NCBI GenBank assembly: GCA_017960525.1
Contig: JAGCZA010000020.1
Coordinates: 1-45,968, forward strand
DNA: 45,968 nt
Direction of reading: 5' to 3'
Origin: Prevotella sp.
GTDB taxonomy: Bacteria > Bacteroidota > Bacteroidia > Bacteroidales > Bacteroidaceae
Shown here: positions 10,597-39,370 of the stretch, piece after piece
How the letters are laid out: every line of letters starts with the position of its first letter
Numbering within the stretch: position 1 is the first letter of the stretch
Translations under genes and position numbers: made by a program
The notes under the pieces: generated by a model
The model's input: the letters and a program-made list of their open reading frames with translations, nothing else
The model's database searches: none
Told to the model about the DNA's origin: nothing

Positions 10597-11259
10597 ATGA
10601 CACTTGTATCACCATCTATGCTCGCGGCCGACTTCCTGAACCTCGGCCGCGAGATTGAAATGATAAACAATTCGGAGGCCGACTGGCTGCACCTCGACGT
10701 GATGGATGGCAATTTCGTGCCCAACATCTCGTTTGGTTTTCCTGTACTACAGGCTGTGGCCAGCGTGTGCAAGAAGCCGCTCGACGTGCATTTCATGATT
10801 GAACGGCCTGAGCGCTATATCCGTGAGACGGCCAAGTTAGGGGCTATGATGATGAACGTTCACCAGGAGGCCACGCTCCATCTGCACCGCACCGTGCAGG
10901 AGATTCACAATGCCGGTATGAAGGCAGGCGTGACGCTCAACCCCTCAACACCTGTCGAGACGCTTACGGACATCATCGGTGACGTGGATATGGTGCTCCT
11001 GATGAGTGTGAACCCCGGCTTCGGAGGCCAGAAGTTCATCGAGCACACCATCCAGAAGGTGAAGCGGCTCCGCCAACTGATAGTGGAATCGGGGTCGAGT
11101 GCGCTCATCGAGGTGGACGGCGGCGTTCAAGCTGAGACCGCCCCACGGCTGGTGGAAGCCGGCGTGGACGTGCTGGTGAGCGGCAGCTATGTGTTCAAGG
11201 CACCAGACCCCAAGCTGGTCATCAGCCAGTTGCGCAGCCTGGGAGAGGCGCTTCGCTAG
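10597..11259 (+). CDS. rpe: Ribulose-phosphate 3-epimerase
   Basis: This 220-aa cytosolic TIM-barrel enzyme interconverts D-ribulose 5-phosphate and D-xylulose 5-phosphate in the non-oxidative pentose phosphate pathway. The full set of family motifs is present: SPSMLAADF at the N-terminus, HLDVMDGNFVPN with the catalytic Asp and metal-ligand His, LDVHFMI, the MSVNPGFGGQKF phosphate-binding segment, and EVDGGV with the second catalytic Asp. Length and start match the family. It lies 49 bp ahead of iorB with a short AT-rich filler (GTGAATAGTGAAAAGTGAAT) between them. Confidence 0.95.
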   Translation: MTLVSPSMLAADFLNLGREIEMINNSEADWLHLDVMDGNFVPNISFGFPVLQAVASVCKKPLDVHFMIERPERYIRETAKLGAMMMNVHQEATLHLHRTVQEIHNAGMKAGVTLNPSTPVETLTDIIGDVDMVLLMSVNPGFGGQKFIEHTIQKVKRLRQLIVESGSSALIEVDGGVQAETAPRLVEAGVDVLVSGSYVFKAPDPKLVISQLRSLGEALR

Positions 11260-11308
11260 TGAATAGTGAAAAGTGAATAACGAATAGATTATAGTGTAAA
11301 AATTATAT

Positions 11309-24332: not shown

Positions 24333-24387
24333 CTTGCTGATTTGAGTGTTTTTTTTGAATCTTCCGCTAGCTTAACCAAAGCCGGAA

Positions 24388-24469
24388 TTTGGACGAACCA
24401 AACCAACAGTTTGGACGAACCAAACTCCCACTTTGGACGAACCAAACTCCCACTTTGGACGAACCAAAT
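24388..24469. repeat. Four tandem 22-bp units with a palindromic core
   Basis: Units begin at 24388, 24410, 24432 and 24454. Each carries TTTGGACGAACCAAA, an inverted repeat TTTGG-ACGAA-CCAAA, followed by a 6- to 7-bp spacer (mostly CTCCCAC). The core is identical in all four units; the spacers vary. The 22-bp period is about two helical turns, so the dyads would lie on one face of the DNA. It could be an operator array, a protein-binding satellite or a set of RNA hairpins. Confidence 0.85.
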
Positions 24470-24541: not shown

Positions 24542-24567
24542 GTCACTTTCACTCCCTCTTCACTCCA
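24542..24567. repeat. Solo copy of the S23-element repeat arm
   Basis: GTCACTTTCACTCC followed by CTCTTCACTCC matches the inner half of the right inverted-repeat arm at 33908-33957. No matching inverted partner and no S23 gene are nearby, so it is either a relic or a free unit of the same repeat family. Confidence 0.6.
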
Positions 24568-25375: not shown

Positions 25376-28225
25376 ATGGACAAGATATGCGTCTACGGAG
25401 CACGTGTTCACAACCTGAAGAATATCGACGTTGTGATACCCCACCAGTCGCTCACCGTCATCACCGGACTGAGCGGTTCGGGCAAGTCGTCGCTGGCTTT
25501 CGACACCATTTTCGCCGAAGGCCAGCGGCGCTACATTGAGACCTTCTCGGCCTACGCCCGCAACTTCCTTGGAGGTCTGGAACGTCCTGATGTAGACAAG
25601 ATCACGGGGCTTTCGCCCGTCATCAGCATCGAGCAGAAGACCACTAACAAGAACCCGCGCTCGACCGTTGGCACCACTACTGAGATTTACGACTATATGC
25701 GACTGCTCTTCGCCCGCGCCGGCAAAGCCTACAGCTATGTCACGGGTGAGCCGATGGTGAAGTACACCGAGGAGCGTGTCATCGAAATGATTCTCAATGA
25801 CTACGCCGGGCGCAAGATTTTCCTCCTGGCGCCACTGGTACGCTCCCGCAAGGGCCACTACCGCGAACTCTTTGAGGCCATGCGCCGGAAGGGCTATCTC
25901 ACCATGCGCGTCGACGGGCAGATAGTGGAGATAGAGCGGGGCATGAAGGTGGACCGCTACAAGAACCACGACATTGAGGTGGTCATCGACAAGATGAAGG
26001 TTGACACCACCAAGGATACCGAGAGGCTGAAGAAGAGCGTGCAGATGGCCATGAAACAGGGTGAGGGACTGGTCATGGTCTATGACACTGAGACCGCTCA
26101 GGCTAAATACTTCTCGCGCCGGCTGATGTGCCCAACGACCGGCATCAGCTACAGCGACCCGGCGCCAAACAACTTCTCGTTCAACTCGCCGCAGGGTGCC
26201 TGCCCCCATTGCAAGGGGCTGGGTGTCATCAGCGAAATCGACCTCTCAAAGGTGATGCCCGACACCAAGAAGAGCATCCACGACGGTGGCATCGTTCCTT
26301 TAGGAAAATATAAGAACCAACTCATTTTCTGGCAGATAGACGCTATTCTCAAGCGGTTTGAATGTGACTTGCGAACCCCGATCGGCCAGATTCCCGATGA
26401 GGCGATGAACGAGATTCTCTATGGTTCGCTGGAGAATGTGCGCATCGACAAAGAGCTGGTCCACACCACCAGCGACTATTTCGTTGCCTTCGATGGCATA
26501 GTGAAGTATTTGCGCGATGCGATGGAGGCCGACGAGAGTGCCAACGGCCAGAAGTGGGCCAGCCAGTTTATGGCCGAGAGCAAGTGCAAGGAATGTCAAG
26601 GGCAGCGGCTCAACCGTGAAGCCCTCTCCTATAAGATTTGGGACAAGAACATCGCCCAGCTCTCGGATATGGACCTCGACGAGCTGCGCCAGTGGCTGGA
26701 ACAGGTCGAGCCTCACCTTGACGAGAAGCAGCGGCAGATTGCCGCCGAGATTCTGAAGGAGATACGCACGCGGCTGGACTTCCTTCTCGACGTGGGTCTC
26801 GACTACTTGTCACTGGGCCGGCAGTCGGCCTCGCTCTCTGGCGGCGAAAGCCAGCGCATACGCCTGGCCACGCAAATCGGATCGCAGCTGGTCAATGTGC
26901 TCTACATCCTCGACGAGCCGAGCATCGGACTGCACCAGCGCGACAACCAGCGGCTCATCCATTCGCTGAAGCAGCTGCGCGACCTGGGCAATACTGTTAT
27001 CGTAGTGGAGCACGACAAGGATATGATGCTCGCCGCCGACTATATCATCGACATCGGCCCCCGTGCCGGACGAAAGGGTGGGGAAGTGGTGTTTCAAGGC
27101 ACCCCCGAAGAGATACTCCATGCTGACACCCTCACCGCCCGCTACCTGAAGACCGAACCTTTGCAAACTGCAGTCTCTCAACCCTCAACTCTCAACCCTC
27201 AACTCTCAACCCTCAACTCTCAACCCTCAACTCTCAACTCTCAACAGATTACTCTAAGGGGCTGTTCCGGCAACAACCTGAAGCACATCGATGTCACCTT
27301 CCCCTTGGGCAAGCTCATCGTGGTTACTGGCGTCAGCGGCAGCGGCAAGTCGACGCTCATCAACGAGACCCTGCAGCCCATCCTCTCGCAGCACTTATAC
27401 CGCTCGCTCAAACGCCCGCTGCCCTACGACAGCATAGAGGGGCTGGAACTCGTCGACAAGGTGGTCGACGTAGACCAAAGTCCCATAGGCCGCACGCCGC
27501 GCTCAAACCCTGCCACCTATACGGGTGTCTTCGCCGACATACGCTCGCTCTTCGTCGCCCTGCCAGAGGCCAAAATCCGAGGCTATAAGCCCGGACGATT
27601 CTCGTTCAACGTGAAGGGAGGAAGGTGCGAAACCTGTGGCGGCAACGGCTACAAGACCATCGAGATGAACTTCCTGCCTGACATTCAGGTGCCCTGCGAG
27701 GAGTGTCACGGCAAGCGCTACAACCGTGAGACGCTGGAGGTGCGGTACAAGGGCAAGTCGATTGCCGACGTGCTCGACATGACCATCAACCAGGCTGTGG
27801 AGTTCTTTGAAAATGTCCCCGACATACTCCGAAAAATCAAAACCATACAGGATGTCGGACTTGGATATATCAAGCTCGGACAGCCCTCAACCACCTTGAG
27901 CGGCGGCGAGAGCCAGCGGGTGAAACTGGCCGCTGAACTGAGCAAGCGCGACACGGGGCGCACCATCTACATCCTCGACGAGCCTACCACTGGCCTTCAC
28001 TTCGAGGACATCCGCATCCTCATGCAGGTGCTCCACAAACTGGTGGAGCGGGGCAACACCGTCATCGTCATCGAACACAATCTCGACGTCATTACTCAAG
28101 CCGACCACATCATCGACATGGGGCCTGAGGGTGGTCGTCGCGGCGGCAACATCCTCGTAGAGGGCACCCCTGCCGAAGTGGCCCGCAGCGGGGTGGGCTA
28201 CACCTCCCAGTATCTCCCGACATAG
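25376..28225 (+). CDS. uvrA: UvrA excinuclease ATPase, second paralogue
   Basis: This 949-aa protein is a complete UvrA: Walker [10 protein letters not shown] and GVSGSGKST, signatures [12 protein letters not shown] and [12 protein letters not shown], Walker [12 protein letters not shown] and [11 protein letters not shown], and zinc-site cysteines [17 protein letters not shown] and CETC...CEEC. It differs from the first paralogue by a Gln/Pro/Ser/Thr/Leu/Asn-rich linker at about residues 600-624, encoded by a run of 7-bp repeats between the two ATPase halves. Because 7 is not a multiple of 3, slippage by one unit would shift the frame and remove the second half. It follows the T9SS gene by 12 bp and is convergent with the GH2 gene. 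Confidence 0.93.
27177..27245 (+). repeat. Heptanucleotide microsatellite (CTCAACY) inside uvrA
   Basis: Nine complete CTCAACC/CTCAACT units plus a six-base partial unit run without interruption. The first eight alternate C and T in the last position, and the last units are all T type. The run falls exactly in the linker between the two ABC domains. Confidence 0.95.
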
Positions 28226-32422: not shown

Positions 32423-33418
32423 ATGGCAGAAAACATTGACATCCGCGAATTGAACATACGGATTGAACAGCAAAGTGGCTTCGTCACCAATCTGGTGGCA
32501 GGCATGGACCGCGTCATCGTCGGTCAGAAACATTTGGTAGACTCATTGCTCATCGGCCTGCTTAGCGACGGCAACATCCTGTTGGAGGGCGTGCCCGGCC
32601 TGGCCAAGACGCTGGCTATCAAGACGCTCTCGCAACTCATCGACGCCAAGTATAGTCGCATCCAGTTTACGCCCGACTTGTTGCCCGCCGATGTGACGGG
32701 TACGATGATTTACTCGCAGAAAGACGAGAAGTTCCTCACCAAGAAGGGACCAGTGTTTGCCAACTTCGTGCTGGCCGATGAAATCAACCGCGCCCCTGCC
32801 AAGGTGCAGAGTGCACTGCTTGAGGCCATGCAGGAGAAGCAGGTGACTATTGGCAGCGAGACTTTTGACCTGCCCAGCCCGTTCCTGGTGATGGCCACAC
32901 AGAACCCCATCGAGCAGGAGGGTACCTATCCGCTGCCCGAGGCCCAGGTGGACCGCTTCATGCTGAAGGTGGTCATTGGCTATCCGTCGATTGACGAGGA
33001 GAAAAAGATTATCCGTGAGAATATCGGCAGTGGACTGCCCCAAGTGACACCCGTCACTACGGCCAAAGACATCCTGAAAGCCCGCGAGGTGGTGCGTGAG
33101 GTCTATCTCGACGAGAAGATTGAGCAGTACATCGCTGACATCGTCTTTGCCACCCGCTTCCCCGACCGTTACGGTCTGAAAGACCTGAAGGACATGATTT
33201 CCTTCGGTGGCTCGCCCCGTGCCAGCATCAACCTGGCCAAGGCTGCCCGTGCCTACGCCTTCATCAAGCGTCGCGGCTACGTGGTGCCCGAGGATGTGCG
33301 CGCTGTGGCCCACGATGTTCTGCGCCACCGCATCGGCCTGACCTACGAGGCTGAGGCCAGCAACGTCACGAGCGAGGAAATTGTCTCAAAGATTATCAAT
33401 AAGGTGGAGGTGCCTTGA
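32423..33418 (+). CDS. moxR: MoxR-family AAA ATPase
   Basis: This 331-aa AAA+ ATPase has Walker A GVPGLAKTLA, Walker B FVLADEINRAPAKVQ, the sensor-1 segment VMATQNPIEQEGTYPLPEAQ and the C-terminal lid FGGSPRASINLAKAARAYA. MoxR proteins act as chaperone-like partners of VWA-domain proteins; here BatA and BatB are the expected partners. It is the first Bat-cluster gene. The next cluster gene (DUF58) is normally adjacent, but a 534-bp repeat-flanked element starts 6 bp after this stop. Confidence 0.95.
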   Translation: MAENIDIRELNIRIEQQSGFVTNLVAGMDRVIVGQKHLVDSLLIGLLSDGNILLEGVPGLAKTLAIKTLSQLIDAKYSRIQFTPDLLPADVTGTMIYSQKDEKFLTKKGPVFANFVLADEINRAPAKVQSALLEAMQEKQVTIGSETFDLPSPFLVMATQNPIEQEGTYPLPEAQVDRFMLKVVIGYPSIDEEKKIIRENIGSGLPQVTPVTTAKDILKAREVVREVYLDEKIEQYIADIVFATRFPDRYGLKDLKDMISFGGSPRASINLAKAARAYAFIKRRGYVVPEDVRAVAHDVLRHRIGLTYEAEASNVTSEEIVSKIINKVEVP

Positions 33419-33423
33419 TTAAT

Positions 33424-33471
33424 GGAGTGAAAGGGAAGTGAAGATGGAGTGAAAGTGGAGTGAAAGTGACG
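33424..33471 (+). repeat. Left inverted-repeat arm of the S23 element
   Basis: Four units (GGAGTGAAAGG, GAAGTGAAGAT, GGAGTGAAAGT, GGAGTGAAAGTGACG). The inner 14-15 bases are the exact reverse complement of the inner end of the right arm. Confidence 0.85.
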
Positions 33472-33502
33472 ATACTTTGTAACTCAGTAAAGAATAGATG
33501 TA

Positions 33503-33883
33503 ATGGCATTGTATAGTTTTGAAAACGTAGTGGCTTGGCAAAAGGCACATACTTTTACGGTGAGTGTCTATACCATTACTCGAGATTTCCCTAAAGAGGA
33601 ATTGTATGGCTTGACTTCACAATTCCGCAGAGCAACAGTCTCTATTGAGGCCAATATAGCTGAGGGGTACAAGAAACTGAGCAAGGCAGACAAGTTGCGT
33701 TTCTTTAACATTTCTCAAGGAAGCCTTGAAGAGTGCCGTAACTACATTCTTCTTTCACGTGACCTTAAATTTATTAATGACGAGGGCATACAATTGCTTT
33801 ATCAACAGATTGAGCAGGCCAGTTGGTTTTTAAACAAATACTGCCAAGGAATTATTAATAACAATGGAATACAAGATGAATGA
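33503..33883 (+). CDS. Four-helix-bundle protein (S23/TIGR02436 family)
   Basis: This 126-aa protein is all-helical with the family pattern FENVVAWQKAHTFTVSVY, FPKEELYGLTSQFRRATVSI, EANIAEGYKKLSKADKLRFF and ISQGSLEECRNYILLSRDL. S23 proteins are encoded in intervening sequences of 23S rRNA genes and elsewhere in Bacteroidetes; Avd, the accessory protein of diversity-generating retroelements, shares the fold and oligomerises to bind nucleic acid. Here it is cargo of an inverted-repeat element inside the Bat cluster. It is more AT-rich than moxR and DUF58, which supports transfer. Its own role is unknown. Confidence 0.88.
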   Translation: MALYSFENVVAWQKAHTFTVSVYTITRDFPKEELYGLTSQFRRATVSIEANIAEGYKKLSKADKLRFFNISQGSLEECRNYILLSRDLKFINDEGIQLLYQQIEQASWFLNKYCQGIINNNGIQDE

Positions 33884-33907
33884 AAGGGAAGGTGGACGAA
33901 AATGTAA

Positions 33908-33957
33908 CGTCACTTTCACTCCTCCTTCACTCCTCTTTCACTCCCCCTTCACTCCCC
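33908..33957 (-). repeat. Right inverted-repeat arm of the S23 element
   Basis: Four CACTCC-type units (CGTCACTTTCACTCC, TCCTTCACTCC, TCTTTCACTCC, CCCTTCACTCCCC). The arm ends 6 bp before the DUF58 start and so forms its immediate 5' untranslated region. Confidence 0.85.
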
Positions 33958-33963
33958 AGAAAT

Positions 33964-34833
33964 ATGGAAACAAGTGAAATTATTAAGAAAGTCCGGAAAA
34001 TTGAAATCAAGGCCCGTGGTCTGAGCAATAACATCTTTGCAGGCCAGTATCACACGGCTTTCAAGGGGCGCGGTATGGCCTTCTCTGAGGTGCGAGAGTA
34101 CCAGTATGGCGACGACGTGCGTGACATCGACTGGAATGTGACCGCCCGCTTCAACAAGCCCTACGTGAAGGTGTTTGAGGAGGAGCGTGAGCTGACGGTG
34201 ATGCTGCTGATTGATGTCAGCGGCTCGCTCGATTTCGGCACACAGCACCAGATGAAGCGCGATATGGTGACAGAGATTGCCGCCACGCTGGCTTTCTCGG
34301 CCATCCAGAACAACGACAAAATCGGTGTCATCTTCTTCTCGGACAAGATAGAGAAATACATCCCGCCGAAGAAAGGCCGCAAGCACATCTTGTATATCAT
34401 ACGCGAACTGCTCGACTTCCATGCCGAGAGTCCGCGTACTGATGTGGCCCAGGCCATCGAGTTCCTGACTGGTGTGAGCAAGCGCCGCTGTACCGCTTTT
34501 CTGATGAGCGATTTCTACGACCGCCAGAGTTTCCAGCAGCAACTCACCATTGCCAGCCGCAAGCACGACGTGGTGGCCATTCAGGTCTATGACCGTCGTT
34601 CCTCCGAACTGCCCAAGGTGGGACTGATGAAGGTGGTCGATGCCGAGACGGGCTTTGAGCAGTATGTGGACACCAGCAGCCGAAAGTTGCGCGACAGCTA
34701 CCGCCGCTACTGGATGAAGCGCCAGGACGACTTGCACGAGACTTTTGCCAAGAGCAATGTAGATAGTGTCAGCATATCCACCGACGGTGACTATGTGAAG
34801 TCGCTAATGGGCCTGTTCAAGCAGAGAGGATAA
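33964..34833 (+). CDS. DUF58 protein of the Bat cluster
   Basis: From ATG 33964 (METSEIIKKVRKIEIKARG) the protein is 289 aa, typical for short DUF58 proteins. The open frame extends to 33880, but the extra codons translate the repeat arm and are rejected. Family motifs are seen: FKGRGMAFSEVREYQYGDD, RDIDWNVTARFNKPYVKVFEEERELTV, and a VWA-like LIDVSGSLDFGT. DUF58 proteins occur with MoxR and Bat proteins and are thought to form part of the same envelope complex. It is convergent with the inserted ATPase gene, 8 bp apart. Confidence 0.92.
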   Translation: METSEIIKKVRKIEIKARGLSNNIFAGQYHTAFKGRGMAFSEVREYQYGDDVRDIDWNVTARFNKPYVKVFEEERELTVMLLIDVSGSLDFGTQHQMKRDMVTEIAATLAFSAIQNNDKIGVIFFSDKIEKYIPPKKGRKHILYIIRELLDFHAESPRTDVAQAIEFLTGVSKRRCTAFLMSDFYDRQSFQQQLTIASRKHDVVAIQVYDRRSSELPKVGLMKVVDAETGFEQYVDTSSRKLRDSYRRYWMKRQDDLHETFAKSNVDSVSISTDGDYVKSLMGLFKQRG

Positions 34834-36536: not shown

Positions 36537-38000
36537 TCAAAAACAAATCTCCTTCCTCGTGATGCCATTTTTCCGGCGTACTATCTTCAGGCCACGTTTA
36601 CCTGTAGCCAGCCTTCCGTCGAGGTTATAGCGGCTTGCGGCAGAATTGTCCCTGCTGGTGCCGGCCTCTGCGATGCCCGACGGCTCATATTCTTCTATCC
36701 AGAATCTGCTCCACCAGTTGTTGTCATCTTGCCGCTGGTATTTTTCTTTGCATCCCTGTGGTACGTAGATGGTACAACTTGACGGCAGCCAGAAGTTGTT
36801 CCCCGATGGCCAAAACACCCACACCTTTCCTGGAACAGGCTCTTCGCGTTCAGTATAGATGCTGCGCAGACCGTAGCAGTCGGAGAAAGTTGACTCGCCA
36901 ATGGTTTCCACACTGGCGGGTATGACCACCTTCTCCAATTTCCCACAGCAGAAGAAAGAGTGGTCCAGCGTAGTGGTGCCCTCGGCAATGGTCACGGTGC
37001 CGGTACGACCGCAGGGGCAGTGGAGCAGTTGCGCACCGTCCTTTGAATAGACTATGCCGTCGATACTCTTATACGTCGGGTTGGACTCGTCCACCTGTAT
37101 GTCGGTCATGCCGTAGTCGAACCATAGCGCACTATTTTCCATCTTTGTTACGCTGGCTGGTATGTTGATGGTCTTTAGGCTGTTGCAGTCCCAGAACACG
37201 TTGTAACCCAGATAACTCACGGTGGAGGGGATTTCCAACGCCTCCAAATGCGTGCAATGGGCAAAGAGGTAGGAGGACAGTTCCTCCACGCCCTCAGAAA
37301 TGTTCACATGGCGCAATTGGCTGCATCCCTCAAAAGCAGAAGAGCCAATCTCACGTACCGTTTCGGGCAGTTGAAGTTCGGTGAGGTGGCTGCATCCCTT
37401 AAATGCCGAACCTATGATGGTCGTAACGCCTTGCGGAACACTGTAAGCCCCCTCTTTACCAGCCGGATAGACGAGCAGCTGCAATCCGTCTTTCGTGAAA
37501 AGCACACCGTTGCGGCTGCTGAACCGTGTGTTGCCCTCGTCCACCTCTATCGCCGTCAGTAGTGGACGGTTATTCAGCAGCCAATAATCGAGCTGCATAT
37601 CCTTCCCAATCGTGAACACACCGCCTTTCCCTCTGGGCCATCCCAGCAGGGTACCGTCCTTGGAGAAGAGCAAACCGTCCTGTGATGACAGTGAGCGGTT
37701 GTCAGTGTCTACGACGACGGCTTTCAGGTTGTTATTTTGGAAGAAACCATGATCCACCCTGTCCACATAGGCCGTCTCACCATCCCATTCGATGGTGGCG
37801 GGCACGAAAAGCGTGTCAGGAGCACAATTCCAGTAGAGGAGTTCTACCCTCACATCATCGCTCTCGTCTTCATCGTCCCAGAACTCCTGATAGTAGTTGT
37901 CGCCAATCTTAGTGGATAAACCATTGTAATAAACAATAGCTTCTATGTTAGTCAGGGCACAGAGGCAAATGCAAGAAATCAGTAATCTCTTCATAGCCAT
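36537..38000 (-). CDS. Secreted BspA-like LRR protein with short T9SS-type tail
   Basis: This 487-aa protein has signal peptide MAMKRLLISCICLCALTNIEA (a second in-frame ATG is at 37994). LRR_5 repeats run from about residue 65 to 410 (AFKGCSHLTELQLPETVREI, AFEGCSQLRHVNISEGVEEL, TFSDCYGLRSIYTE), with three inserts of the form SxDGxLFSKDGTxLxxxPxGKxG, typical of BspA relatives. The C-terminus (RYNLDGRLATGKRGLKIVRR) resembles the short Prevotella secretion tail. It is likely surface-exposed, with a binding role. It lies opposite to the Bat genes and uses the same palindromic promoter module as the neighbouring ATPase gene. Confidence 0.82.
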   Translation of the reverse strand: MAMKRLLISCICLCALTNIEAIVYYNGLSTKIGDNYYQEFWDDEDESDDVRVELLYWNCAPDTLFVPATIEWDGETAYVDRVDHGFFQNNNLKAVVVDTDNRSLSSQDGLLFSKDGTLLGWPRGKGGVFTIGKDMQLDYWLLNNRPLLTAIEVDEGNTRFSSRNGVLFTKDGLQLLVYPAGKEGAYSVPQGVTTIIGSAFKGCSHLTELQLPETVREIGSSAFEGCSQLRHVNISEGVEELSSYLFAHCTHLEALEIPSTVSYLGYNVFWDCNSLKTINIPASVTKMENSALWFDYGMTDIQVDESNPTYKSIDGIVYSKDGAQLLHCPCGRTGTVTIAEGTTTLDHSFFCCGKLEKVVIPASVETIGESTFSDCYGLRSIYTEREEPVPGKVWVFWPSGNNFWLPSSCTIYVPQGCKEKYQRQDDNNWWSRFWIEEYEPSGIAEAGTSRDNSAASRYNLDGRLATGKRGLKIVRRKNGITRKEICF

Positions 38001-38030: not shown

Positions 38031-38098
38031 TTCTGCAAAAATACACATTTCCCGCCGAATGGCCAAAAGTTTTCCTGAAAAAATTTGGCCGCGTCGAC
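38031..38098. repeat. Palindromic promoter module, copy 2
   Basis: Second copy of the 67-bp module; its 30-bp near-palindrome is at 38061-38090. Differences from copy 1 are a handful of bases, mainly in the right arm of the palindrome (AAAATTTGGCC instead of AACCTTTGGCC). Confidence 0.9.
38036..38067 (-). promoter_or_regulatory. Promoter of the 487-aa LRR gene
   Basis: Minus-strand TTTG (38064-38067), 20-bp spacer, TATTTTTG (38036-38043), the same geometry as in copy 1 of the module. Confidence 0.8.
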
Positions 38099-38186
38099 TT
38101 TTTACTAAGTATTTTGTGCTAAATGTGTCTTCCTTCGTATAGAATCGTTATAAACATTAATATCTGCGTAAAAGTTCGTTAATTGT

Positions 38187-38284: not shown

Positions 38285-39370
38285 ATGAAAGCAAAGGGCA
38301 GATGGGTAATGATAATGTGCTTGTCATTTATCATTTACCATTTTTCATTTAGCCATGCGGTGGCCCAGGTCAAAGTGGAGTCGTCGTTGAGTGCGGTGGA
38401 AATGCTTGTAGGCCAGCAGGTGCAGGTGACAGTCACAGCCACCACCGGCGAGAATGCCGTGGTGGAGTTCCCCAAGGAGACGATGCTCCCGGCGGGGATA
38501 GAGTTTCTGGGAGCTGTGGAGATGCCTACAGAGAAGGTCGATGGCGGTCAGGTGAACCACAGCCGAGGCTATGTGTTCACCTCGTTTGACGACACGCTTT
38601 ATTATATCCCGCCCTTCACTATTAAGGTGGACGGCAAGAACTATCAGACCAACAAATTGGCCCTGAAGGTGCTCACCGTCGATGTGGACACCACCGACTT
38701 TGAGAAGTATTACGGCCCGAAGACCGTGCAGGACAATCCCTTCAGTTGGGAACTCGACCAGTGGGCTGTGCCTTTCTGGCTCAGTGTCCTTATGCTGGTG
38801 CTGATGGCAGTGGCTTGGTATCTCTGGCTGCGTCTGCGCGATAACAAGCCCGTCATCGCCCGTCCGCGCTTCGTGCGCCGTCTGTTGCCTCACCAGAAGG
38901 CTATGCGTGCCATTGAGGAAATCAAGGCCGAGAAGATGCAGACCGCCGAAGACCCCAAGGAGTACTACACGCGACTGACCGACACCCTGCGCAAGTATAT
39001 CGAGGAACGCTACGGCTTCTATGCGATGGAAATGACCAGTTCGGAGATTATCGAAAAGTTGACACAGGCCGACCCGGAGTCTCTGGACGAGTTGCGCTCG
39101 CTCTTCCAAACTGCCGATTTAGTGAAGTTCGCCAAGTATTCGACGCTCCTTGGCGAGAACGATGCCAACCTGGTGAGTGCCATTGACTTCATCAACCGCA
39201 CCAAGGTGGAACTCCCGCCCAGCGAGCAAGTGGTGAAGACCGAACTTACCGAGGAAGAGAAGCAGACCAAGAAGAGTCGTACCACGCTGAAGACCGCCAT
39301 TGCCGTGCTGTGTATTGCTGCCGCCGTGCTGTTCGGCTATATCATCTATAGTGTCATTGATTTATTATGA
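38285..39370 (+). CDS. BatD-like membrane protein of the Bat cluster
   Basis: From ATG 38285 the protein is 361 aa, with a signal peptide (CLSFIIYHFSFSHAVAQ), a beta-rich periplasmic domain like the N-terminus of BatD (VKVESSLSAVEMLVGQQVQV, IPPFTIKVDGKNYQTN), a transmembrane helix (about 160-180, VPFWLSVLMLVLMAVAWYLW), a helical cytosolic region (DPKEYYTRLTDTLRKYIEERYGF) and a C-terminal hydrophobic segment. Bacteroidetes Bat clusters carry such a protein between DUF58 and batA. The signal-peptide DNA is made of TCATTTA/TCATTTACCA filler repeats. Its stop overlaps the batA start (ATGA). Confidence 0.8.
   Translation: MKAKGRWVMIMCLSFIIYHFSFSHAVAQVKVESSLSAVEMLVGQQVQVTVTATTGENAVVEFPKETMLPAGIEFLGAVEMPTEKVDGGQVNHSRGYVFTSFDDTLYYIPPFTIKVDGKNYQTNKLALKVLTVDVDTTDFEKYYGPKTVQDNPFSWELDQWAVPFWLSVLMLVLMAVAWYLWLRLRDNKPVIARPRFVRRLLPHQKAMRAIEEIKAEKMQTAEDPKEYYTRLTDTLRKYIEERYGFYAMEMTSSEIIEKLTQADPESLDELRSLFQTADLVKFAKYSTLLGENDANLVSAIDFINRTKVELPPSEQVVKTELTEEEKQTKKSRTTLKTAIAVLCIAAAVLFGYIIYSVIDLL

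Follow-up and report, generated by a model that had tools for sequence, protein, structure and literature searches.

In a Prevotella sp. contig (JAGCZA010000020.1, assembly GCA_017960525.1), the first 45,968 nucleotides of which were analysed as a whole and are called the window here, a compact unit at 33424-33957 fills the gap between a moxR-type gene and a DUF58 gene. It carries a single gene, for an S23 or four-helix-bundle protein, and is closed at both ends by inverted arms made of short tandem repeats. The unit and its two host neighbours are laid out as follows.

32423..33418, + strand: upstream host gene, moxR-type AAA ATPase (PF07726, 217.8 bits).
33424..33478, + strand: left arm, with four 11-nt units (33424-33434, 33435-33445, 33446-33456 and 33457-33467) seen by repeat detection at periods 11 and 22.
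33468-33478, + strand: inner 11-mer of the left arm, GACGATACTTT, not a repeat; unit borders read from the sequence.
33503..33883, + strand: S23 (four-helix-bundle) gene, intact, 126 aa, assigned from profile matches and the related chain 2gsc_A.
33901-33911, + strand: inner 11-mer of the right arm, AATGTAACGTC; the right arm as a whole is 33901..33955.
33912-33922, 33923-33933, 33934-33944 and 33945-33955, + strand: the four 11-nt units of the right arm, which is the reverse complement of the left arm at 84%.
33964..34833, + strand: downstream host gene, DUF58 (PF01882, 264.3 bits).

Inverted-repeat detection gives arms of 55 nt each, 84% complementary and spaced 422 nt apart, with GGAGTGAAAGT-like units on the left and ACTTTCACTCC-like units on the right, and the inner 11-mers also pair. 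The left arm begins 5 nt past the end of moxR (33418) and the right arm stops 8 nt short of the DUF58 ATG (33964), so tightly is the unit fitted into its gap. A first-pass annotation of this DNA had described arms of about 48 bp, each of four units; the inverted arms and the four units stand, while the length is corrected to 55 nt by the inner, pairing 11-mer. Its central claim, that a small inverted-arm element unconnected with ribosomal RNA has S23 as its sole gene, is borne out by an intact open reading frame between 55-nt arms in the moxR-DUF58 gap; an Rfam scan of the window gives no match at the gathering score, and the S23 unit does not lie here inside a 23S rRNA gene. The protein matches PF05635 at 119.3 bits (cut-off 33.8) and TIGR02436 at 111.5 bits (cut-off 24), and is related to the solved chain 2gsc_A (E 6e-16). 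None of the PADLOC anti-phage models matches it, and no S23 matches were found in phages.

The arm score of the window unit is 32.5. By the same score, 30 other genes of the window average 8.9, with a top value of 17.5 that belongs to a direct repeat containing an internal palindrome, while 2232 random pairs reach at most 16, 306 pairs of host DNA at the same spacing from S23 loci at most 17.5, and the DUF58 flanks at 28 other loci at most 15.0. When the 534-nt unit is folded as RNA, the arms are predicted to form the basal stem of a structure at -171.3 kcal/mol, as against -129 (standard deviation 6.3) in 100 shuffles, a z of -6.7.

The window's genome (G000) holds further units of this kind. 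A TIGR02436 search returns 11 rows, which make 10 loci because L010 and L011 are fragments of one broken gene (these broken copies are excluded below by a length filter); the S23 gene of L008 has one internal stop. All 10 loci have inverted short-repeat arms, the weakest being those of L006 (50 nt, 74%), and the repeat unit differs at each: read by eye, the first five are GAGAGGT, GGAGTGAAAGT, TTGACCA, GAGAGTT and AAAAAAT, and the rest an AT-rich unit, an AAATGAT-like unit, AGTGAAG, an ACTATTT-like unit and a GGAGTTCAG-like one. The proposal that a GGAGTGAAAG array is the general signature of these loci therefore fails, since other S23 loci bear other units. Nine of 10 neighbouring frames that were scanned have a Pfam match, and the neighbours so identified are two methylmalonyl-CoA mutase genes (at one site), ParA, an FMN-binding protein, a 2Fe-2S protein, a class-V aminotransferase, a histidine kinase, KduI and a short-chain dehydrogenase.

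Genomes with a TIGR02436 match number 52 of 60 in the genus and 114 of 148 in the phylum; the 14 control genomes have none. Scored against its own right arm, the left arm gives 25.3 over 99 unique loci of the genus, as compared with 9.8 against the right arms of other loci, and 79 of these loci reach 18; in a set of 68 loci of the window's subfamily, drawn almost entirely from named records that include Segatella buccae, Hoylesella loescheii and Marseilla massiliensis, the figures are 27.9 and 12.3, with 58 at 18 or more. The subfamily set overlapped the other genomes; duplicates, recognised by gene sequence, were removed (leaving 196 of 220), and three of the 196 unique elements, with less than 150 nt on one side, were excluded. 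Among the resulting 193 pooled Bacteroidota loci, 139 score at least 18, a value that none of the 306 host-DNA pairs reaches, and 28 score 14-18, although armed loci may be over-represented here, as loci were taken best match first. The expectation that S23 genes elsewhere would have such flanks is thus upheld for most of them. Of the left arms that are long enough, 97 of 133 are periodic beyond 200 shuffles, with periods of 7 to 11; an inner motif, G[AC]C[AG][AT]N, is present in both arms of 37 of the 83 armed members of the window's subfamily, where shuffles expect 0.3; and within armed elements S23 is AT-richer than the flanks (median GC 0.40 vs 0.53).

Much the same organisation is found in cyanobacterial plasmids, whose records label the S23 genes 'four helix bundle protein' or 'S23 ribosomal protein'. 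In our sample (10 of 29 records with S23), all 10 loci have short-tandem inverted arms, with own scores of 14.5-29.5 that exceed the best cross score in six cases; the other four share their unit with another locus. Arrays of CAGGAGT, TTAGCTG and GGTGTAG are S23 arms in Nostocales plasmids. Two of these plasmid units have cas neighbours, that of L285 lying between cas10 and a Cmr3-family gene and that of L289 between cas6 and cas4.

Could tandem arrays simply be common between genes, with S23 merely landing beside them? There are indeed S23-free arrays in the window and at moxR-DUF58 in relatives, which is what such a chance association would predict, but the arms are inverted, particular to their locus and matched in register, no host pair reaches 18, and the comparison of own with cross arms contradicts it outright; we regard it as very improbable.

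That the unit moves is suggested by its closest relatives, namely L173, which is also at moxR-DUF58, and L042 and L172, which lie between gltX and kdtA. When the window copy (L041) is aligned with L042, the match is confined to L041 positions 1422-1866, 1907-1955 and 1924-1962, which reach from one arm to the other, and the flanks are unrelated. DNA similarity runs from the first base of the left arm to 2 nt beyond the right arm, or 9 nt if one overlapping alignment of the repeats is counted, and the two S23 proteins are 81% identical. A discrete unit had been placed at 33424-33957, and it is precisely this span that the similarity to a relative at another site recovers, the one overlapping repeat alignment extending it to 33964. 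The reciprocal sites are empty: in the window's own genome the gltX-kdtA junction (L255) is a bare TGAATG, and G223, which carries a gltX copy, has a moxR-DUF58 junction (L088) without S23. Of 249 genomes 224 match at moxR-DUF58, and of the 30 best-matching loci 29 have no S23, eight of these being a bare TGAATG overlap. Empty sites, whose existence the first-pass annotation had proposed to check, were found at both of these junctions and also in Nostocales plasmids.

The plasmid sites are the more telling for being so closely matched. At the first, the unit is present in L281 and L282, while L302-L305 read straight through at 97.5-98.2% identity and are 428 bp shorter; GTAAT occurs once in the empty form and at both sides of the insert in the occupied form, and L306 retains only an apparent remnant. 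The second site is occupied in L283, L314 and L315 and empty in L310-L313 and L290, and its 5-nt repeat, TTCTA, resembles arm sequence; the third is occupied in L284 and empty in L307-L309, with no clear repeat. In the operon of the second site, L290 has an S23 unit of another kind, its arms built of AAAAGGG, placed one gene later, after WP_104899637.1, the protein that follows S23 in L283; about 70% of L290 is matched by related plasmids, which lack this S23 unit. Different S23 subfamilies also occupy the parA-parB boundary in different genomes (L004 vs L054 and L113), which suggests preferred sites. A 1070-bp block with an S23 unit inside is present twice in G116, 18 kb apart and 99.5% identical (L291 1559-2628, L292 1579-2648); we considered this as a recent movement of S23 itself and rejected it, as the copied block exceeds the S23 unit and hitchhiking is indicated. 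The host block looks RAYT-like by eye, and the S23 unit perhaps lies inside a degraded transposase gene, though a family scan gives E 0.0067, below cut-off, and there is no Pfam match.

These comparisons bear on the view that S23 with its arms is a regulatory device resident in these operons, such as an attenuator or an mRNA processing site with its binding protein, and not mobile at all. Purifying selection on S23, conserved arms, mostly vertical inheritance at individual sites and the sense bias described below are all what one would expect of such a module. It is hard to square, though, with relatives in unrelated operons that are alike only from arm to arm, with sites empty at 97-98% identity, with the lack of S23 at 29 of the 30 best-matching moxR-DUF58 loci, or with different subfamilies at the one parA-parB site, and we judge it rather improbable. 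The sequences instead suggest that the S23 unit is a small mobile element, with S23 as its only gene and inverted arms of short tandem repeats.

A striking property of this putative mobile element is the direction in which it is found. Among the 139 armed elements, S23 runs in the same direction as both neighbours in 105 and against both in three, the rest being 17 divergent, 9 convergent and 5 undecided. Counted by distinct site, for the 188 elements with readable neighbours, the 88 sites comprise 78 co-directional, one opposed and 5 and 4 others (p 2.6e-22); neighbour strands outside the plasmids are those of the longest open frames, not of annotation. The cyanobacterial plasmid loci, where annotated strands could be used, are co-directional in nine of 10 cases and opposed in one.

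The arms themselves change in concert. Within 107 of the 139 armed elements the best register beats any register at least 4 nt away by more than 5 points, so that pairing is in register, and at shared sites the left arm pairs better with its own right arm than with that of other species, by 25.9 to 13.2 in the largest cluster (c0) and by 20.3 to 11.5, 18.8 to 10.0 and 27.6 to 16.8 in the three next largest (site clusters are not independent); in very close relatives the two kinds of pairing are alike. Both arms must then change together, and slowly. Instant homogenisation of the arms was rejected as an account, since left arms of close relatives resemble one another more than left resembles right (for example in c5, c10 and c15, where some non-arm sequence is included). 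Of 10 pairs compared, seven have third codon positions of just 0.36-0.51 identity, yet their arms remain 0.74-0.93 identical, where unrelated arms give 0.61 (sd 0.21), free end gaps inflating both the related and the unrelated values; something therefore seems to select for the arms. The S23 gene is itself under purifying selection, judging from nonsynonymous-to-synonymous rate ratios (dN/dS) of 0.027-0.159 for those seven of 15 pairs in which dS is below saturation.

Taken together, these observations lead us to a model that we consider probably correct as a whole, in which a mobile S23 element is processed through its transcript stem, S23 aids its spread and the arms are matched at the level of DNA. 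Once the host operon is transcribed, the arms would pair into a long stem with S23 in the loop, and RNase III would cut that stem, by analogy with the S23 intervening sequence of 23S rRNA. Such a cut would free the S23 mRNA and separate the host cistrons, making excision of the S23 unit from RNA, as first suggested from the sequence, plausible; we propose that an operon mRNA divided at the stem is what makes a sense insertion between genes tolerable. S23 would be made from the operon transcript and would take part in spreading the element itself, probably through binding to the element's RNA or hairpin, and the arms would be kept alike mainly at the DNA level, by copying between them.

A number of results weigh against this model, and they deserve to be considered side by side. 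There is no excess of G-U type mismatches in the arms on the S23 strand (148, vs 186 of A-C type, p 0.043 in the opposite direction), nor in operon-sense elements (120 vs 147), from which it follows that the arms are not visibly kept alike by RNA pairing that tolerates wobble; copying between arms in DNA is the simplest account, in preference to wobble-tolerant selection on RNA. No target-site duplication emerges among the 139 Bacteroidota elements, 63 (45%) of which share at least 5 nt at their flanks as compared with 44% of cross pairs, and the CTTAA that seems to be repeated at L173 does not exceed chance expectation; in the plasmids the 5-bp flanking repeat is clear at one site, confounded at the second and unclear at the third. 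Copies at shared sites look mostly vertically inherited, with 24 label changes on an unfinished quick tree (minimum 16, shuffled 76.8), and jumps would accordingly be rare. Copy number across 60 genomes is a mean of 3.09 S23 copies with RVT_1 and 3.76 without, and of 4.03 with Y1_Tnp and 2.80 without, neither amounting to an association, and seven genomes with at least four S23 rows have neither, several of the genomes being incomplete. The own right arm is the best of all partners at only 62 of the 99 genus loci and 26 of the 68 subfamily loci, because many loci of one subfamily have similar units; the phylum-wide set is weaker (at least 18 in 7 of 30, at least 14 in 16 of 30, own 14.8 vs cross 9.6); and 26 of the 193 pooled S23 loci score below 14.

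Several of these points would sit comfortably with the idea that the element is a non-autonomous passenger at the DNA level, its arms serving as hairpin ends for a transposase acting in trans and RNA folding being incidental. No transposase is encoded within the S23 unit. Inverted ends and clean insertion, the one clear 5-bp duplication, the mismatch pattern without G-U excess and the carriage of an S23 unit within another duplicated block in G116 would all fit. On the other hand, arm sequences vary so widely by locus that a sequence-specific transposase would not bind them, a 78-to-1 sense bias would not follow from DNA insertion by itself without a loss of antisense copies, and Y1_Tnp, the sole transposase family compared, does not track copy number. 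We therefore think a pure DNA passenger unlikely, if a serious competitor to the model of transcript-stem processing with S23 aiding spread.

The known system closest to the window element is the S23-encoding intervening sequence (IVS) of 23S rRNA. In Coxiella, according to the available part of PMC4990558, this has a 28-bp terminal stem, an S23p open reading frame and excision by RNase III, and variable numbers of GACAGAT heptamers are repeated in tandem beside the reading frame. The Coxiella and Leptospira elements are alike with ours in having S23 as sole gene and a terminal inverted repeat that forms a stem in a transcription unit. Window-type elements differ in lying between protein genes of many operons and not in rRNA, and in having arms that are arrays of 7-11-nt units differing by locus; moreover, their S23 is under purifying selection, whereas that of Coxiella is described, in the same part of PMC4990558, as undergoing reductive evolution. 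As the defining location is not shared, the window element is a variant rather than a member of this class, and our own reading is that it would be a 23S rRNA intervening-sequence element living in mRNA operons.

A second comparison is with short tandemly repeated repetitive (STRR) sequences of cyanobacteria, which, in the portion of PMC2670836 available, are usually 7-bp repeats that can form hairpins and whose function is 'still not known'. They share with the S23 arms of Nostocales plasmids their 7-bp tandem units between genes, and differ in being described there as arrays alone, where S23 arms flank a gene; that S23 arms might be a source of STRRs is a proposal of ours that draws on ten plasmid loci. 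Intergenic TAACTGA heptamer arrays occur in Beggiatoaceae, Cyanobacteria and Bacteroidetes (PMC4679880, in part), and so in phyla where S23 elements are found, but they consist of one fixed heptamer in direct repeats, and the paper mentions neither S23 nor four helix nor intervening sequence.

The related four-helix bundle of Avd, from diversity-generating retroelements (DGRs), raises the possibility that S23 is the Avd of such an element and the arms its repeats. The homology of S23 and Avd is reported (PMC10053308, as far as the available text goes), and a phrog Avd profile matches at E 0.0015. Yet S23 reaches only 27.2 bits with DivGenRetAVD, where the cut-off is 80, and RVT_1 finds no match in the window's genome (G000, 94% complete), which contradicts this explanation for the window locus and makes it extremely improbable; the window element is not a DGR.

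Correia elements, which belong to the miniature inverted-repeat transposable elements (MITEs), are cut by RNase III at their inverted repeats (PMC10969869, in its available part). Like the S23 element, MITEs are short, with inverted ends and an mRNA context; unlike them, it encodes a conserved protein, and its arm units are not common to many copies. REPIN / RAYT systems, too, place inverted repeats around one small gene, as S23 elements do, whereas the repeats of the S23 element are locus-specific, and S23 is not known as a nuclease or a transposase. In the literature that we searched, which covered few subscription papers and no bioRxiv preprints, we found nothing linking non-rRNA S23 genes to tandem inverted arms.

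Why might this matter? We know of no role for S23 genes outside rRNA and DGRs, and if they are the cargo of operon-dwelling mobile elements, S23 gains a context, and empty-site comparisons and RNase III assays become directly applicable to it. An origin would also be offered for short tandem repeats whose function is reportedly unknown (PMC2670836, in part). Furthermore, the 23S rRNA intervening-sequence protein (IVP) appears in a figure legend on association with CRISPR (PMC10910872, the part available); guilt-by-association links of this kind may reflect insertion, given that two of the ten plasmid loci lie between cas genes. In its broadest form, S23 elements would be a widespread class of single-gene mobile elements that settle in sense within operons and have changing arms of self-matching tandem repeats, covering Bacteroidota and Cyanobacteria at least, many intergenic heptamer arrays in these phyla, STRRs included, would be their arms or scars, and the S23-CRISPR link would be largely insertion; we would lean somewhat against this generalisation.

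Arrays and small elements without S23 are also present at these sites. Short tandem arrays (ACTAGTAGG, AGTGAAA and TAATGCATAATTC) lie at moxR-DUF58 in S23-free relatives (L075, L076, L079, L080, L083, L085, L088 and L097), and L072 has a cargo-less hairpin there, scoring 29 where shuffles reach at most 11. Heptamer arrays without S23 are found in the window at 11257-11287, 27175-27245 and 38324-38356, and one isolated arm-unit copy, GGAGTGAAGAGGGAGTGAA, which no S23 gene adjoins, at 24548-24566 on the minus strand, a 22-nt array lying just upstream at 24374-24468. A BspA-type leucine-rich-repeat gene (PF13306; window 36537-38000 and about 38040-38110) has on either side a direct repeat of about 60 nt, nearly identical in its two copies and containing a palindrome. 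Finally, the gltX-kdtA junction of L253 (2243-2629) and L273 holds a DUF559 gene between GCCCCC/GGGGGC inverted repeats, a second small element family (PF04480, 121.6 bits for L253, which was scanned alone), of which L275, L276, L279 and L280 are, by eye, apparent cargo-less short forms, and similar motifs are seen at moxR-DUF58 in L073 and L084.
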